The position numbers and the translations under genes were made by a program. A DNA stretch of 64,000 nt from Agrobacterium tumefaciens (lineage in GTDB: Bacteria > Pseudomonadota > Alphaproteobacteria > Rhizobiales > Rhizobiaceae): assembly GCF_009649785.1 (NCBI RefSeq), contig NZ_WJOK01000001.1:186001-250000 (forward strand), in the 5' to 3' direction. The notes beneath the pieces were generated by a model. The model made no database searches and had not been told where the DNA came from. It saw only the letters and a list, made by a program, of their open reading frames with translations. Below, one piece after another: positions 15,097 to 62,543 of this stretch; position 1 is the first letter of the stretch; each line of letters starts with the position of its first letter.

Positions 15097-15612
15097 TCAG
15101 TTGATCGAGAAAGCCGTGCGCAGAAGGTTAAGCTGCGCCTGCACGCTGTTTTCGTTGTCAGGTACCTTGGTGGCTTCGGACGGGCGGTAAATTTCACGGT
15201 CGAGAAGGGCAACGCGGTTCTGGAGGCGGAGCGACCGCTCGATGAGGTCACGGAAGGACTCAGGCAGGTCGTTCCAGCCCGGAGCGTTGCGATCGACGTT
15301 GAAGCTGTCGAGCCGCACCTTGCTTTTTTCGCTGAGAACCTGATCGCGTGTCATCTCGCCATTGTTGACGGCGCGCTGCAGAAGCAGCCAGGACGCCATC
15401 TGCATCAGGCGGGTGGTGAGGCGCATCGATTCTGCCGCGTAAAGGACAGACGCCATGCGCGGCAGAACCTTTGAAGCGGTACGACCGGCTCCATCAAGAT
15501 AGCTCGCCGTTTCCTCAACCAAGGTCATGCCTTCGGTATAGAGGGTCTTGAACTGGTTGGAAGCAGCCGCGCGACCCGCAAAGCTAATGGTATTTAAAAC
15601 CTGTTCCGACAT
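15097..15612 (-). CDS. DUF1465 family protein
   Basis: 171 aa, predicted all-helical and soluble. It matches the alphaproteobacteria-restricted DUF1465 family. Typical blocks are SFAGRAAASNQFKTLYTEGM at the N-terminus, a central ESMRLTTRLMQMASWLLLQRAV region and SLRLQNRVALLDREIYRP near the end. Function is not established. The start is ATG 15612, since the frame upstream is unrelated. A TTAA-N7-TTAA box (CtrA type) and a GANTC methylation site lie in its upstream region, suggesting cell-cycle control. Confidence 0.82.
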   Translation of the reverse strand: MSEQVLNTISFAGRAAASNQFKTLYTEGMTLVEETASYLDGAGRTASKVLPRMASVLYAAESMRLTTRLMQMASWLLLQRAVNNGEMTRDQVLSEKSKVRLDSFNVDRNAPGWNDLPESFRDLIERSLRLQNRVALLDREIYRPSEATKVPDNENSVQAQLNLLRTAFSIN

Positions 15613-15729
15613 TTTCTTTGAATCCCTGCTCACGCACCACACTGTCAGGCAACGACGACCGGTAATATTTTGTTCCGGCCTTTAGTGTTTTCAGGATGGT
15701 ATCTTTACCTGAAATGCGCAAGGCAATTA

Positions 15730-15744
15730 TTAAAGAAGGGTTAA
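15730..15744. promoter_or_regulatory. CtrA-type box upstream of the DUF1465 gene
   Basis: TTAA-agaaggg-TTAA exactly matches the TTAA-N7-TTAA recognition sequence of the cell-cycle regulator CtrA. It lies about 118 bp before the DUF1465 start codon. A GAATC (CcrM-type GANTC) site is at 15620–15624. Confidence 0.6.
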
Positions 15745-15775: not shown

Positions 15776-15802
15776 TAAAAAAAGAGCCGCGAAAGCGGCT
15801 CT
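15776..15802 (-). terminator. Strong minus-strand terminator in an intergenic gap
   Basis: AGAGCCGC-gaaa-GCGGCTCT, a perfect 8-bp stem with a tetraloop. Read on the minus strand it is followed by seven T. It lies 215 bp beyond the DUF1192 gene and fits better as the 3' end of a small transcript. Confidence 0.85.
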
Positions 15803-15874
15803 CAAGGTAAAACAGGGAGAAAAATCAGACCAATTCGCCGTATGGAGAAGATGCCTGAGGCCCAGAAGAACTGG
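15776..15874 (-). ncRNA. Candidate CtrA-controlled small RNA (about 100 nt)
   Basis: No protein gene occupies this gap. On the minus strand a CtrA box (15915–15901) covers the position of a −35 element. TACTAT (15886–15881) fits a −10 box at the right spacing, which predicts a start near 15874. About 100 nt later comes a perfect terminator hairpin. The body has unpaired pyrimidine-rich tracts such as UUUUUCUCCCUG, which resemble the anti-Shine-Dalgarno tracts of trans-acting rhizobial sRNAs. A 17-codon frame (15878–15825) exists but its ATG overlaps the predicted start, so an RNA is more likely than a peptide. This is a prediction; I do not assign it to a known sRNA. Confidence 0.5.
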
Positions 15875-15900
15875 ACATGTATAGTAATCTCTCAGAAAGC

Positions 15901-15915
15901 TTAATTTTTGGTTAA
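15901..15915. promoter_or_regulatory. CtrA-type box overlapping a minus-strand −35 region
   Basis: TTAA-tttttgg-TTAA, an exact TTAA-N7-TTAA. On the minus strand it reads TTAACC...TTAA and sits 14 bp before a TACTAT −10 candidate, the usual geometry of CtrA-activated promoters. A GAATC site lies at 15938–15942. Confidence 0.6.
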
Positions 15916-16017: not shown

Positions 16018-16209
16018 TCAGGACCGGAAGAGGTTCTCCGCCGCAAGCCGGCCGGCAGACTTCCTTTTCCTCTCCTCTTCAAGTCGGGTGATTTCGGTTT
16101 GAAGAATGTCGATGCGGTTGCTCAGCTCGTCCACCGAAAGAAGGCTGAGATCGCTGCCGATCTCATGCGCTACCGGTTTTTGCGGACGGTCATCGTCCAA
16201 GAGGCTCAT
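16018..16209 (-). CDS. DUF1192 family small protein
   Basis: 63 aa. N-terminus MSLLDDDRPQKPVAHEIGSD, then LSLLSVDELSNRIDILQTEI and a short coiled coil with basic end RLEEERKRKS. It matches DUF1192, a small alphaproteobacterial family of unknown role. Its ATG overlaps the stop of the MFS transporter gene by four bases (ATGA), so the two are translationally coupled. Confidence 0.82.
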   Translation of the reverse strand: MSLLDDDRPQKPVAHEIGSDLSLLSVDELSNRIDILQTEITRLEEERKRKSAGRLAAENLFRS

Positions 16210-27119: not shown

Positions 27120-27295
27120 TTCGTTCGTGGCCCTCTGGTGGTTTGGTTGGATACGTCCTATATCTAAGAGGCGTTCTGCGCTTCCCGACAGGAACCACAA
27201 TCCCTGGGGCCATACTCGATCCAAAGGGAGCTGTCCCTGGCCAGTCCCGTGGGGCTGGACACATGGCGCCCACCTACATTTGTAGGCACCCAGGA
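27120..27295 (+). ncRNA. ssrS: 6S RNA (boundaries approximate)
   Basis: A 455-bp gap follows zapA with no convincing protein gene. It contains a G/T-rich 5' half (CTCTGGTGGTTTGGTTGG, near 27133) and a C-rich 3' half with a CCTAC-atttg-TAGG hairpin near 27273. This is the usual look of the rod-shaped alphaproteobacterial 6S RNA, which binds RNA polymerase. Location directly behind zapA and before the 5-formyl-THF cyclo-ligase region is the conserved position. I could not fold it, so the ends are estimates. Confidence 0.7.
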
Positions 27296-27547
27296 TCGTA
27301 AATCTCCATCGGTCGCCGTGGATCGCACTTGAAGTTTCGGGTCACTCCCCGATTCTTCTTCTGACTCATATAGTGTCGACAGTTATTTTTCATTGCTGCC
27401 GGAGACGGCTTTTTTATGCTGCTGTCATTGCAATGGCGGAACAATTCCCTATTATCTCAATTGGTATGTCTGTCATGCCCTTTTTTTTGAAAGAGGGCGC
27501 TGCGGCCAAAACCGCGACGTGCCGTTCAACAGCCCAAAGAGCTAAAC

Positions 27548-52256: not shown

Positions 52257-52271
52257 TTAATCGGGACTTAA
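52257..52271. promoter_or_regulatory. CtrA-type box upstream of an outer membrane protein gene
   Basis: TTAA-tcgggac-TTAA, followed by CCAT, an exact TTAA-N7-TTAA(CC) CtrA site, 83 bp before the start codon of the outer membrane protein gene and clear of the glmM terminator. Confidence 0.62.
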
Positions 52272-52354
52272 CCATTTTACGCCAATCTCCGTGACTGAAC
52301 AGTTCACTGGCATTTGCTGCCGCAACGGCAGGTGCCTCTTCTGGAGTGGAAGTC

Positions 52355-53200
52355 ATGAAAAACGCTTTGGCCGGCATTCTGGCCGTTCTGATGACCGGCA
52401 CGAGCGCCTTCGCTGCCGATCTTTATCAAGCTGAACCTGCACCTGCCTATGTAGAGGCACCCGAAGTGCAGATCACGCAGGCAAGTGGTTGGTATCTGCG
52501 CGGCGACGTCGGTTATTCCTTCAACAAGCTTCGCGGCGCCAACTATTATCAGGGTGGACCGGGTGGTTATCTCGCCGATTTCGATACGGCTAATGTCAAG
52601 GATAGCTACATCGTCGGCGCCGGTGTCGGTTATCAGTTCAACAACTATTTCCGCAGTGACGTAACCTTCGATTACATGGGTAAATCGGATTTCCGCGGGT
52701 CTACCATCGGCGGCTGTGGTTCCGTGCCCGGTCCCTGCGTTTCAGCGGATCTCAGCTCGCTTAGAGCATACACGCTGATGGCAAACGCCTATGTCGACCT
52801 TGGTACCTATGGCCGCATCACGCCTTATGTTGGCGGCGGTATCGGCGGCTCCTACGTCAAATGGGATAAGCTGCGCAATACTTCGTGCAGCACCAATGGC
52901 CTTGGCTGCGACCCGACCACCGAACACGGCGGCAGAGGCAAGTGGCGCTTCGCCTATGCCCTGATGGCCGGTGCGTCGATCGATGTTACCTGTAATCTGA
53001 AGGCAGATGTCGGTTACCGCTTCCGCCAGATCAACAAGGGCGACATGTTCGATTTTGCGAATGGTGGCGGTCCTGGCCGCGACAAGGGTCTGTATTCGCA
53101 TGAGGTTCGCGTCGGTGGCCGTTATGTCTTTAACGGCTGCGATACCGCGCAATACATGCCGCCTGCCGATATTCCGCTGCAGCCTGCCGTTTATAAATAA
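52355..53200 (+). CDS. Outer membrane beta-barrel protein (Omp25/OmpA-like porin family)
   Basis: 281 aa. Signal peptide MKNALAGILAVLMTGTSAFAADL. Barrel strands with alternating pattern: GWYLRGDVGYSFNKL, YIVGAGVGYQFNNYFRSDVTFDY, ITPYVGGGIGGSYVKWD, FAYALMAGASIDV, CNLKADVGYRFRQINKG and YSHEVRVGGRYVF. Resembles the rhizobial/Brucella Omp25-Omp31 group. Two cysteine pairs in loops. ATG 52355 with GGAG. A CtrA box lies upstream, pointing to cell-cycle timing. No peptidoglycan-binding domain. Confidence 0.88.
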   Translation: MKNALAGILAVLMTGTSAFAADLYQAEPAPAYVEAPEVQITQASGWYLRGDVGYSFNKLRGANYYQGGPGGYLADFDTANVKDSYIVGAGVGYQFNNYFRSDVTFDYMGKSDFRGSTIGGCGSVPGPCVSADLSSLRAYTLMANAYVDLGTYGRITPYVGGGIGGSYVKWDKLRNTSCSTNGLGCDPTTEHGGRGKWRFAYALMAGASIDVTCNLKADVGYRFRQINKGDMFDFANGGGPGRDKGLYSHEVRVGGRYVFNGCDTAQYMPPADIPLQPAVYK

Positions 53201-53332: not shown

Positions 53333-53410
53333 TTGACGGAGGCCGGTGAGAGGAATAGCAACGGCGTCAGGACACCTCTCCCTAACGAGAGGCGCCTATC
53401 TGAAAGGGTA
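53333..53410 (+). promoter_or_regulatory. Structured leader upstream of serC (candidate serC RNA motif)
   Basis: Helix 1 pairs TGAC..GCCG with CGGC-GTCA (53334–53369, one side bulged). Hairpin 2 is CCTCTC-cctaac-GAGAGG at 53375–53392. Then a GAAAGGG ribosome binding region and the serC ATG at 53416. Alphaproteobacteria have a conserved serC leader of this kind before serC–serA. Match to that motif is by recollection, not by model search. Confidence 0.55.
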
Positions 53411-53415
53411 GTCAA

Positions 53416-54594
53416 ATGACAGATATAGTGAAGCCGGACCTCCGTCCGGGCAATACGCATTTTTCTTCTGGTCCCTGCTCGAAGCGTCCCGGTTGGTCGC
53501 TAGATGCTCTCTCCGATGCACCGCTCGGTCGCTCGCATCGCGCCAAGGTTGGCAAAGCCAAGCTGAAGCAGGCCATCGATCTCACCCGTGAAATTCTCAA
53601 TGTTCCCGCCGATTATCGCATCGGTATCGTTCCCGCGTCTGACACCGGCGCCGTTGAAATGGCCCTTTGGTCGCTGCTTGGTGAACGCGGCGTCGATATG
53701 CTTGCCTGGGAAAGCTTCGGTGCCGGCTGGGTTACCGATGTCGTCAAGCAGCTGAAGCTGAAGGACGTACGCAAGTTGGAGGCCGATTACGGCCTGCTGC
53801 CGAACCTGGCGGAAGTCGATTTCGACCGCGATGTGGTTTTCACCTGGAACGGCACCACCTCCGGTGTCCGCGTTCCCAATGCCGATTTCATTCCTGCTGA
53901 CCGCAAGGGTCTGACGATCTGCGATGCCACCTCGGCGGCCTTCGCGCAGGATATGGACTTTGCAAAGCTCGACGTCGTAACCTTCTCCTGGCAGAAGGTT
54001 CTGGGCGGCGAGGGTGGCCACGGCGTCATCATCCTTTCGCCGCGCGCTGTCGAGCGTCTGCTGAGCTACGCGCCGGCATGGCCGCTGCCGAAAATCTTCC
54101 GCATGGTCTCCGGCGGCAAGCTCATCGAAGGCATCTTCACTGGCGAAACCATCAACACCCCGTCCATGCTCTGCGTTGAGGATTATATCGACGCGCTGCT
54201 GTGGGCGAAGAACCTTGGTGGCCTGAAGGCGCTGATTGGCCGTGCTGATGCCAATGCCAAGGTCATCTACGACTTTATCGAGAAGAACGACTGGATCGCC
54301 AACCTGGCCGTCAAGCCGGAAACCCGCTCCAACACCTCCGTCTGCCTGAAGATCGTCGATCCCGACGTACAGGCGCTGGATGCTGCTGCGCAGGCGGATT
54401 TCGCCAAGGGCATCGTTGCCCTGCTTGAAAAGGAAAATGTCGCCCTCGATATCGGCGCTTACCGTGACGCACCGTCCGGTCTGCGCATCTGGGCCGGCGC
54501 AACCATCGAGACGGCCGATATGGAAGCCGTCATGCCCTGGCTCGCCTGGGCCTACCAGACGCAGAAGGCAACACTTTCCAAGGCTGCCGCCTGA
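53416..54594 (+). CDS. serC: Phosphoserine aminotransferase (alphaproteobacterial type)
   Basis: 392 aa, PLP-dependent. It makes phosphoserine from 3-phosphohydroxypyruvate and glutamate. [18 protein letters not shown] is the alpha-type (TIGR01365) start; the PLP-binding Lys lies in [31 protein letters not shown] is conserved. Structured leader upstream. serA follows after 83 bp, so serC–serA form an operon in which both proteins act in serine synthesis. Confidence 0.95.
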
Positions 54595-61144: not shown

Positions 61145-61495
61145 ATGAGAGTTCAAAAGCGGTCGGTAGTTGCATTGTCCGCGCGAAGTAGGGTGATTGC
61201 CACTTTGGCTCTGATTGCGAATTGTGCGGCTATATCGAGTGCGTTGGCTCTCGACAGTGATCAAAAGCAGATAGCACAAGGTCTAGCTAATATCCTATCC
61301 AGCGCGCCCTCTTGTGGCTTCGAAGTCGATACACCTGCGCTTGAGGCGTACTACGCAAAAACCGGCTTGGACACGCCTGAGGGTCTCGCCTACTTCAACC
61401 ATATGATGACAGTAGTTGCCGGAAGCGGGGGGGACAAAAACGCCTGCGCCCTAGCGAAGACCACAGCCAAATCCATCGGCATACTGCAAAATTAA
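61145..61495 (+). CDS. Hypothetical secreted protein
   Basis: 116 aa. Signal peptide with hydrophobic VIATLALIANCAAISSALAL; mature part LDSDQKQIAQGLANILSSAPSCG... with Cys at about residues 58 and 103 that could form a disulfide. Not recognised. The ATG at 61145 follows AGGGGAGAA. Lower GC and different codon use than the core genes before it. The stop overlaps convergently with the next gene's stop at TTAA (61492–61495). Confidence 0.6.
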   Translation: MRVQKRSVVALSARSRVIATLALIANCAAISSALALDSDQKQIAQGLANILSSAPSCGFEVDTPALEAYYAKTGLDTPEGLAYFNHMMTVVAGSGGDKNACALAKTTAKSIGILQN

Positions 61496-61905
61496 TCTCC
61501 GCCACCAAACATCGGCTTCAGGTTGATCGCATCGCTCGGCTTGTAGGTCCACCGCCATTTATCCGATAGAGCCTTTGCCAAACGCGCCGCAATCTCGTTG
61601 CGAGCAGGCTCCGAATAGAGGGTGAGTTTGTTGGCATAGGTCTTTGCGAGATCGTCAGGCACAGCCGTCAATTCACCAGCGAGGAAAATTTCCACGTCTC
61701 GTTTCTCAATGACCTCTGCGCCTCCAAAGAAGGTGTATGTGCGGCCGAGAAAGCGGGCGACGATGACTGCCACCTCCATGGTCGCGTGTGGCATCCTCCG
61801 ACGATGAACACCTGTCCCACCGAACCCGTTGCGAAACGTCCTCGGCACCACCGCTAGAGCGACGCATATAGATTTTTCAATATTGTCTTCCAGCCCCGGA
61901 GCCAT
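61492..61905 (-). CDS. Hypothetical protein
   Basis: 137 aa, soluble, no signal peptide. Blocks: SICVALAVVPRTFRNGFGG, FLGRTYTFFGGAEVIEKRDVEIF, YANKLTLYSEPARNEIAARLAKAL. No family recognised. ATG 61905 has AGGAGAAGG immediately upstream; a perfect hairpin lies just before that ribosome binding site. Ends at the same TTAA as the convergent secreted-protein gene. Confidence 0.6.
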   Translation of the reverse strand: MAPGLEDNIEKSICVALAVVPRTFRNGFGGTGVHRRRMPHATMEVAVIVARFLGRTYTFFGGAEVIEKRDVEIFLAGELTAVPDDLAKTYANKLTLYSEPARNEIAARLAKALSDKWRWTYKPSDAINLKPMFGGGD

Positions 61906-61921
61906 GGCCTTCTCCTGAAGG

Positions 61922-61949
61922 CTCAACGCGGTTTTGAGGCCGCGTTGAG
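61922..61949. repeat. Perfect 10-bp hairpin before the ribosome binding site
   Basis: CTCAACGCGG-ttttgagg-CCGCGTTGAG between two minus-strand accessory genes, ending about 6 nt before the AGGAGAAGG of the downstream gene. No T run follows, so it is not a classical terminator. Confidence 0.6.
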
Positions 61950-62033
61950 GATGTTTTGAGGGGTCTTTAATAACCGCTTAAATGGGCATTTTGAGAGTTC
62001 GCCACGCATACGCTGCGCAGGCCCTTTGATCAT

Positions 62034-62543
62034 TCAGTTTTGGTCGGTGGTTTGCTCCAATATGGGTGAAACAAAAAGCGGTTTTCGGCGCGTGCTATTC
62101 CGGTCAAACTCACTCGCCCACAACACCCAATGTTCAGTTGCTGTCCCAACGTACTGAACTGCCCGTTCTGATTCCCCCGATCTTAAATTAAAGAAGGTCA
62201 AATCGTTGTGTTGCTGGTGATCATAGAGCGAGAGAACCGGCTCGCCCGTTTCGCTGAAAGTCAGAAGTCCTTCTTGTTTCACAGCCTTAGTACCGTCGAC
62301 AAACTTTTGCGAAATGTCGACCGGCTCGATGAGCCAATCGCTACCGAGATCCAGGGCATCTCGATCAAAATTTACTTCTCCGTGGCGAAAAGATTTTTTG
62401 TGCAAGTCAACTATGACTAGCCTCGACGTTTGGCTTGCCTGCTCACAAACAATCGCAAGATAGGAATTGCCTTCGTGATCAAACCGAATAAGTGATCCGA
62501 CCTTGGCTTTCTTGGTGGTCGTCGATTTGATGTTCAATGTCAT
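62034..62543 (-). CDS. Hypothetical protein
   Basis: 169 aa. N-terminus TLNIKSTTTKKAKVGSLIRF, then beta-rich segments YLAIVCEQASQTSRLVIVDL and EHWVLWASEFDR. Not recognised; could have a small SH3-like or barrel start. Visibly lower GC than the core chromosome. Divergent from the next gene; the gap between carries a 14-bp palindrome. Confidence 0.6.
   Translation of the reverse strand: MTLNIKSTTTKKAKVGSLIRFDHEGNSYLAIVCEQASQTSRLVIVDLHKKSFRHGEVNFDRDALDLGSDWLIEPVDISQKFVDGTKAVKQEGLLTFSETGEPVLSLYDHQQHNDLTFFNLRSGESERAVQYVGTATEHWVLWASEFDRNSTRRKPLFVSPILEQTTDQN

Follow-up and report, generated by a model that had tools for sequence, protein, structure and literature searches.

Between the DUF1192 and DUF1465 genes of Agrobacterium tumefaciens lies a short gap whose minus strand carries a possible CtrA box and a terminator, and an earlier note on this DNA took it for a likely small RNA (sRNA) driven by CtrA. 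The locus raises the question of whether such an sRNA exists, to which family it belongs, and whether CtrA acts on it or on a neighbouring gene.

Features of the gap

All coordinates are those of the window, by which we mean the whole stretch of 64,000 nucleotides that was analysed (contig NZ_WJOK01000001.1, positions 186,001 to 250,000). On the minus strand the genes follow in the order MFS transporter gene, DUF1192 gene, gap and DUF1465 gene (Pfam). DUF1465 (PF07323) is the RcdA family, and RcdA is the adaptor for CtrA proteolysis. The earlier note had neither equated DUF1465 with RcdA nor listed the second box at 15744-15730. In the accessible text of PMC10469942, atu3742 of C58 is named rcdA, and from family and context we infer that it is the ortholog of the rcdA gene in the window. 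The features, with the evidence for each, are as follows.

16018..16209, minus strand: DUF1192 gene (PF06698), upstream of the sRNA; Pfam match
15901..15915, minus strand: predicted CtrA box TTAACCAAAAATTAA, at -39 to -25 of the predicted +1; sequence and conservation
15883..15888, minus strand: -10 element ATTACT; sequence, with ATTACT or TTTACT aligned in many relatives
15777..15876, minus strand: sRNA of about 100 nt, BjrC1505/SmelC671 type; covariance model, fold z and published length
15862..15874, minus strand: stem-loop 1 (CCAG/CUGG); fold, and double changes at 5 of 6 pairs in alignment A3
15825..15858, minus strand: stem-loop 2 (UCAGGC...GUCUGA, inner helix); fold and Rhizobiaceae alignment
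15804..15824, minus strand: unpaired linker UUUUUCUCCCUGUUUUACCUU; fold
15811..15819, minus strand: CUCCCUGUU, anti-Shine-Dalgarno-like (anti-SD) proposed seed; conservation
15782..15803, minus strand: intrinsic terminator hairpin GAGAGCCGC-TTTC-GCGGCTCTT; sequence, terminator scan and fold
15730..15744, minus strand: second predicted CtrA box TTAACCCTTCTTTAA, upstream of rcdA; conservation
15623..15628, minus strand: CAGGGA in the rcdA ribosome-binding region, complementary to UCCCUG of the sRNA; sequence and leader comparison
15097..15612, minus strand: rcdA (DUF1465, PF07323), 171 aa; Pfam match of 202.4 bits

The TTAA-N7-TTAA box described for the minus strand is exact (15915-15901). TACTAT, which had been named as the -10, is indeed present at 15886-15881, but relatives align on ATTACT two bases upstream (15888-15883), an element that is itself less conserved in Sinorhizobium. 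The terminator hairpin and its seven T (15783-15777) were found as described, with 9 pairs counting the end G-T, 6 of them G-C. The predicted 5' end was moved from 15874 to about 15876, because the last 100 nt of the Sinorhizobium meliloti 4H41 homologue (100 nt being the length published for SmelC671), counted back through its T-run, start at ATCCGG, the base equivalent to 15876.

The window has four TTAA-N7-TTAA boxes where 100 shuffles average 0.12, and two of the four lie in the sRNA gap, at 15915-15901 and 15744-15730. Another exact box (52257-52271) is located about 75 nt upstream of a 284-aa ORF (52346-53200, plus strand) which by eye looks like an outer membrane protein and is possibly a CtrA target. 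The fourth (61967-61981) lies between the minus-strand ORFs 61492-61926 and 62034-62543. The window also holds a serC leader at 53365-53416 (RF00517, 61.6 bits).

A generic sigma-70 scan missed the sRNA promoter, giving one site in 3 kb, elsewhere, against 1.5 expected, and the terminator scan gave sites near chance level (5 against 3.8 expected). Both scans speak against the observation, and the case for the sRNA therefore rests on conservation.

The sRNA is conserved together with rcdA

DNA matches to the sRNA stretch were obtained in 37 of the 37 genus genomes searched (own genome included) and in 223 of 297 family genomes, the distant ones matching only over the last ~43 nt. For wider searches we used R1, a covariance model built from the 64 sequences of alignment A1, which scores the window sRNA at 107.1 bits, the window sequence being itself among those used to build it. 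R1 matched in 149 of 199 genomes of the order and in 15 of 190 class genomes; three of these 15 are of the order itself (the own genome and two more), and several of the others are weak.

Among the matches listed, rcdA lies downstream on the same strand in 187 of 195 loci, at a distance of 169-504 nt (median 218), and the remaining 8 end before rcdA is reached, with DUF1192 on the other side. The sRNA sequence served to select these loci (L001-L195), and two collections share some of the genomes. The queries for L001-L056 held the promoter; L057-L076 came from the same searches, mostly via core-only matches. All 30 best loci of the order search, 6 of which belong to the same family, have rcdA downstream, as do 7 of 15 further loci from the class search, the other 8 lacking it there. 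Related genomes share ancestry, so locus counts here and below are not independent.

Some loci that lack rcdA downstream match something else or match poorly. L239 (over the cut-off of 41 bits) and L237 (39 bits, just under it) match the suhB/MmgR family rather than the sRNA, and L240 and a tandem pair in L234/L241 are weak R1 matches (29-32 bits). The tandem matches, at 1501-1598 and 1741-1838 of L234, come from an AT-rich genome that belongs to another order; CTCCCTGTTCAAACTT and a terminator are present in the first of them. A rhizobial sRNA core was also seen in L193, a contig labelled Arenimonas sp. (MAG), which is possibly a contaminating contig.

The RNA has a conserved fold

The strand from 15875 to 15776 folds at -32.6 kcal/mol (z -4.56), better than 200 of 200 shuffles, and the prediction consists of three stem-loops, including the terminator. 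The earlier note had proposed looking for compensatory changes in aligned homologues, and these were found. In A3, an alignment of 44 distant rows, 13 of 18 pairs show double changes; the shuffled mean is 3.8 and none of 500 shuffles reaches 13. In the same alignment 95.3% of cells pair, and shifting the partner by 1-3 columns lowers pairing to 27-48%.

In A4 (31 Rhizobiaceae rows) 97.2% of cells are paired and double changes occur in 4 of 24 pairs, a number reached by 3 of 500 shuffles; further pair types are no better than in shuffles (317 of 500). Covariation is thin in Rhizobiaceae since the terminator is invariant there and, in stem 1, the alignment of three rows is off by one base. RNAalifold run on all 64 rows of A1 gave only stem 1 and the terminator, with double changes at 4 of 13 pairs, and stem 2 is lacking since it differs between the two groups. 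A1 holds 64 of 68 nonredundant rows (L061, L077, L082 and L167 left out). A3 and A4 were chosen by hand, A3 without L058, L061, L066, L067, L068, L071, near-duplicates and doubtful matches, and A4 without 17 Rhizobiaceae rows of A1 with an odd stem-2 length.

All nine letters of CUCCCUGUU are invariant in the 64 aligned sequences, which were mostly found with a core pattern that contains them; the motif is also kept in L200-L233, which were found by the covariance model. Conservation, covariation and the published transcripts of the probable S. meliloti ortholog strongly support the small RNA, complete with promoter and terminator, that had been proposed for the gap, and we regard the existence of the sRNA as almost certain.

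The sRNA belongs to the BjrC1505 family and is very probably SmelC671

The earlier note had held that no known gene product accounts for the terminator. This is not so, as a known sRNA family (BjrC1505) does. An Rfam search of the gap at the gathering threshold gave no match; below it, RF02356 BjrC1505 aligns to the window end to end with 34.4 bits (cut-off 50, E 6.5e-05 for 451 bases). The cut-off is passed upstream of rcdA in 15 scanned relatives (51.5 to 97.1 bits), namely 4 in a first scan of 10 sources (L201, L227, L229 and L236) and 11 of 14 in a second (L057, L060, L062, L066, L074, L076, L205, L210, L213, L216 and L220). L231 and L233, which have no nearby rcdA, also score above it. 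The copy in L146 (R. leguminosarum) reaches 35.2 bits, below the cut-off; at E 0.01 the BjrC1505 model did not match L137 (S. meliloti 4H41) or L124 (A. vitis). The window sRNA is linked to accepted members of the family through intermediate sequences at the same locus. Because these relatives upstream of rcdA pass the Rfam cut-off, we place the Rhizobiaceae form in the BjrC1505 family on sequence comparison, as that family seen from its far side. This also links BjrC1505 to the Sinorhizobium/Agrobacterium branch, where the copies scanned score below the Rfam threshold. When aligned to 15922-15777 of the window, the BjrC1505 model covers the promoter and CtrA box with its first ~45 positions. 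Either promoter sequence may have been taken into the Rfam family, or transcription in Bradyrhizobium may begin further upstream.

Comparison with published rhizobial sRNA sets, also suggested earlier, led to a named transcript. From its flanking genes, strand and length, the sRNA is very probably sm84/SmelC671 (SMc06875) of S. meliloti. Table 1 of PMC2573895, in its accessible part, lists sm84 on the sense strand of the intergenic region SMc03988> SMc03989> with a Northern band of ~80 nt and a microarray signal; the band is shorter than the ~100 nt predicted here. RNA-seq placed SmelC671 at 2986421-2986520 on the plus strand, 100 nt long (PMC2873474, accessible text). The consulted portion of PMC3927594 gives it a terminator and relatives across Rhizobiales, including R. 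etli ReC71, and that of PMC7143759 lists expression in nodule zone II and no sigma-factor motif. A length of about 100 nt, an intrinsic terminator and a Rhizobiales-wide distribution are shared by the two RNAs, and flanking order and strand probably agree as well.

In 4H41, the strain in which the flanks were compared, the homologue lies between DUF1192 and rcdA on the same strand. The distance between the sRNA and 6S RNA is 12.4 kb in 4H41, 14.2 kb as implied by the 1021 coordinates, and ~12.4 to 17.0 kb in eight other Sinorhizobium/Ensifer genomes (assuming a shared contig), a range that includes 14.2 kb. The window has its 6S RNA (RF00013, 79.1 bits) at 27170-27328, about 11 kb from the sRNA and in opposite orientation, an arrangement also present in Sinorhizobium. 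A literature text search for the sRNA core sequence gave no match.

A CtrA box is conserved at the sRNA promoter

Members of the CtrA regulon carry a conserved TTAA-N7-TTAA at the promoter, and such a box was found at the sRNA. It is exact upstream of the sRNA in 41 of 75 nonredundant close loci, and present with at most one mismatch in 66 of the 75, among the matches listed. More distant loci have the exact box in 18 of 20 cases and model-search loci in 16 of 25, with shuffled means of at most 0.23. Among the 68 nonredundant core-pattern loci in the matches listed, for which the query did not contain the promoter, 35 have the exact box and 57 have it with at most one mismatch. The 'order' set of these box counts includes L227, L229 and L230, which are of other orders, and L200, which is of the same family; L204 and L206 in it are the same places as L072 and L073.

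The geometry of the box is also kept. Among the matches listed, the spacer is 7 in 128 of 193 distinct upstream regions, spacers of 5, 6, 8 and 9 occurring in 5, 1, 1 and 1; 66 of the 128 boxes start exactly at -39 and 27 at -38, the exact box is missing in 65 of the 193 regions, and in 12 fewer than 7 of the 8 letters are matched. Each upstream region was counted once however many loci share it, the 5' end was set wrongly for a few of the box positions, and L108, L119, L120, L172, L183, L231, L232 and L236, where the 5' stem motif was not found, are outside the count. Over 229 loci (redundant, among the matches listed) there are 158 N7 sites in 17,175 promoter-window bases against 10 in 1,226,411 bases elsewhere, with 260 nt on the rcdA side excluded. 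The exact box stays at the sRNA where rcdA is not adjacent: in L232 (genome G561) rcdA is 41 kb away, in L231 (G687, of the same genus as G561) there is no rcdA within 1.5 kb, and the genome of L233 (G521) has no PF07323 match.

Because of the depth, spacer and position of the box, control of the sRNA by CtrA, as the earlier note had suggested, is supported, and it fits the CtrA ChIP-seq sites in the rcdA promoter region of S. meliloti (PMC4433202, accessible text). That the box belongs to the sRNA promoter is, judging from these alignments, well supported, and the conserved CtrA promoter would be new: no paper stating it was found in a search of article texts, mostly outside subscription journals. 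CtrA very probably controls the sRNA directly, and it likely acts as an activator.

Other readings of the box and the RNA

Both boxes lie upstream of rcdA, and one could argue that they serve this gene and that a real sRNA just sits in its control region. A search within 50-150 nt of the core gave an exact rcdA-proximal box in 57 of 61 close loci, 13 of 20 more distant ones and 2 of 27 in the 'order' set. CtrA sites have also been assigned to rcdA: in the accessible texts, several TSSs and possible CtrA sites are given for its orthologs in each of the three agrobacterial lineages (PMC10469942), and a CtrA motif precedes an rcdA TSS in S. meliloti (PMC3616915). However, the box at the sRNA is conserved more deeply than the rcdA-proximal one. 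In 26 loci of other families or orders 15 have an exact sRNA box (25 if one mismatch is allowed), and 2 have an exact box anywhere between the RNA and rcdA (7 if one mismatch is allowed). The sRNA box is moreover near-fixed relative to the RNA 5' end and, as seen above, persists where rcdA is elsewhere or not found. In Hyphomonas, rcdA is not CtrA-regulated as far as the accessible text of PMC7200025 goes. CtrA depletion in S. meliloti leaves rcdA unchanged in spite of the ChIP-seq sites there, according to the accessible part of PMC4433202, whose passage on the rcdA region makes no mention of an sRNA. An sRNA promoter at the ChIP site would explain why CtrA is bound near an unresponsive rcdA, though the peak could also come from the second box. 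On balance, we find it improbable that the boxes serve rcdA instead of the sRNA. A role for CtrA as repressor of the sRNA is unlikely too, if less so; a box overlapping the -35 can repress, but the basal -35 is poor (no sigma-70 match), as expected of an activated promoter, and -39 to -25 is the usual geometry of CtrA-activated promoters.

Whether the RNA is an independent transcript has to be asked as well. The terminator might end the MFS-DUF1192 mRNA, with the RNA as a 3' UTR product: the strand is the same, the predicted start is 142 nt past the DUF1192 stop, and DUF1192 lies upstream in 55 of the 56 closest loci. We consider this very improbable, given that conservation begins at the promoter and not at the DUF1192 stop codon, and that the published descriptions of sm84 and SmelC671 are of intergenic sRNAs having a promoter (PMC2573895 and PMC2873474, accessible parts). 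A weak point against it is the lack of a tblastn match to DUF1192 in 14 of 20 more distant loci, of which at least 2 (L065 and L073) look by eye like missed divergent copies. Reading the RNA as an rcdA leader whose transcription ends prematurely (attenuator) is likewise very improbable. The terminator does precede rcdA on the same strand, and pairing in cis is conceivable between CUCCCUGUU and the CAGGGA of rcdA; against this, Rhizobiaceae have another box and a CTTGCG -35-like element downstream of the terminator, unlinked copies of the sRNA exist, and the distance to rcdA varies as widely as given above among the matches listed. We find it quite likely that the gap encodes a trans-acting, CtrA-controlled anti-SD sRNA of the BjrC1505 family.

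Candidate targets of the sRNA

The fold predicts an exposed C-rich motif complementary to ribosome-binding sites, and an anti-SD mechanism would be rather probable for this sRNA. Among the matches listed, CAGGG is present in 82 of 107 distinct rcdA leaders, against 5 of 127 for DUF1192, 0 of 67 for rpmE and 1 of 28 for fba, and the median duplex z is -1.64 for rcdA against -0.13, -0.52 and -0.35, respectively. Identical leaders were counted once, and only loci with a tblastn match from residue 1 were used. In the window itself, CAGGG occurs in the leaders of 2 of 46 genes. A conserved ribosome-binding site alone could yield such leader counts.

For cdnL, 19 of 30 leaders contain CAGGG and the median z is -2.08. 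The cdnL (CarD-like) leaders L321-L350 show a conserved AACAGGGAG in many genera of the family, which is the exact complement of CUCCCUGUU of the sRNA. Neither ctrA (CAGGG in 0 of 30 leaders, median z 0.43) nor gcrA (2 of 30, median z 0.23) was supported as a target. From these leader comparisons, rcdA and cdnL mRNAs are the best-supported candidate targets in Rhizobiaceae; each of them taken singly is possible, with the chances somewhat against it.

In other families of the order, where the sRNA is conserved, CAGGG precedes rcdA in only 1 of 19 loci with a predicted ATG (L201, L202, L204, L206-L214, L218-L220 and L222-L225; 5 more have no predicted ATG). Since the pairing is limited to a lineage though the sRNA is conserved, rcdA appears unlikely to be the ancestral target. 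The exact 9-nt complement AACAGGGAG has 28 sites in the own genome against 12 for a reversed control pattern, and 21 against 16 in S. meliloti 4H41, one site per genome being the sRNA itself. The two site lists, compared by eye, share no gene at a start codon.

Proposed mechanism and comparison with known systems

In the mechanism that we propose, phosphorylated CtrA would bind the box overlapping the -35 and activate the sRNA during the CtrA phase of the cell cycle. The sRNA would then expose CUCCCUGUU between stem-loop 2 and the terminator, and the motif would pair with purine-rich ribosome-binding sites and block translation. Repression of rcdA, if it occurs, would stabilise CtrA (positive feedback). 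If this is true, CtrA, a master regulator, turns on an anti-SD sRNA whose gene is next to that of the adaptor for CtrA proteolysis. In its widest form, the proposal would have BjrC1505/SmelC671 belong to the CtrA regulon directly and ancestrally throughout Rhizobiales, repress rcdA (and cdnL) in Rhizobiaceae in a positive loop on CtrA stability and form a counterpart of Caulobacter CcnA; we put this forward as a speculation which is more doubtful than any of its parts given above.

The suhB/MmgR family (RF00519), of AbcR type, shares with the window sRNA a 3' module in which a CUCCCU anti-SD is followed by the terminator. Its model scores 21.9 bits against the window, below the cut-off of 41, and the two differ in the 5' part, the locus and the promoter. 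AbcR/MmgR-type sRNAs are thought to block translation by pairing with ribosome-binding sites.

EcpR1 (SmelC291), which the earlier note had mentioned as a possible identity, is a rhizobial cell-cycle sRNA and, like SmelC671, is listed with nodule zone II expression in the accessible text of PMC7143759; it differs from the window sRNA in its locus (divK-pleD/rpmG) and loop motif UCCGCCGCAUCU (PMC4414408). GspR (SmelC775) is a stem-loop sRNA linked to CtrA, as the window sRNA would be, but it lies between SMc03844 and SMc03845, is likely restricted to Sinorhizobium and targets ctrA. Both are listed alongside SmelC671 (PMC7143759, same portion), and both were rejected by locus as the identity of the window sRNA.

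Caulobacter CcnA is presumably a CtrA-activated ncRNA with a C-rich pairing motif and so resembles the window sRNA (PMC8959179). It differs in lying at the replication origin and in binding the ctrA and gcrA leaders, both unsupported as targets here, and its authors did not clearly detect a homologue in S. meliloti (PMC8959179).

The reports on SmelC671/sm84 itself, in their accessible parts, name neither a function nor a CtrA link (PMC2573895, PMC2873474, PMC3927594). What we describe is a known sRNA family in a new genome, the well-supported novelty being its conserved CtrA promoter. An sRNA that is widely conserved in rhizobia thereby acquires a possible cell-cycle role that can be tested.
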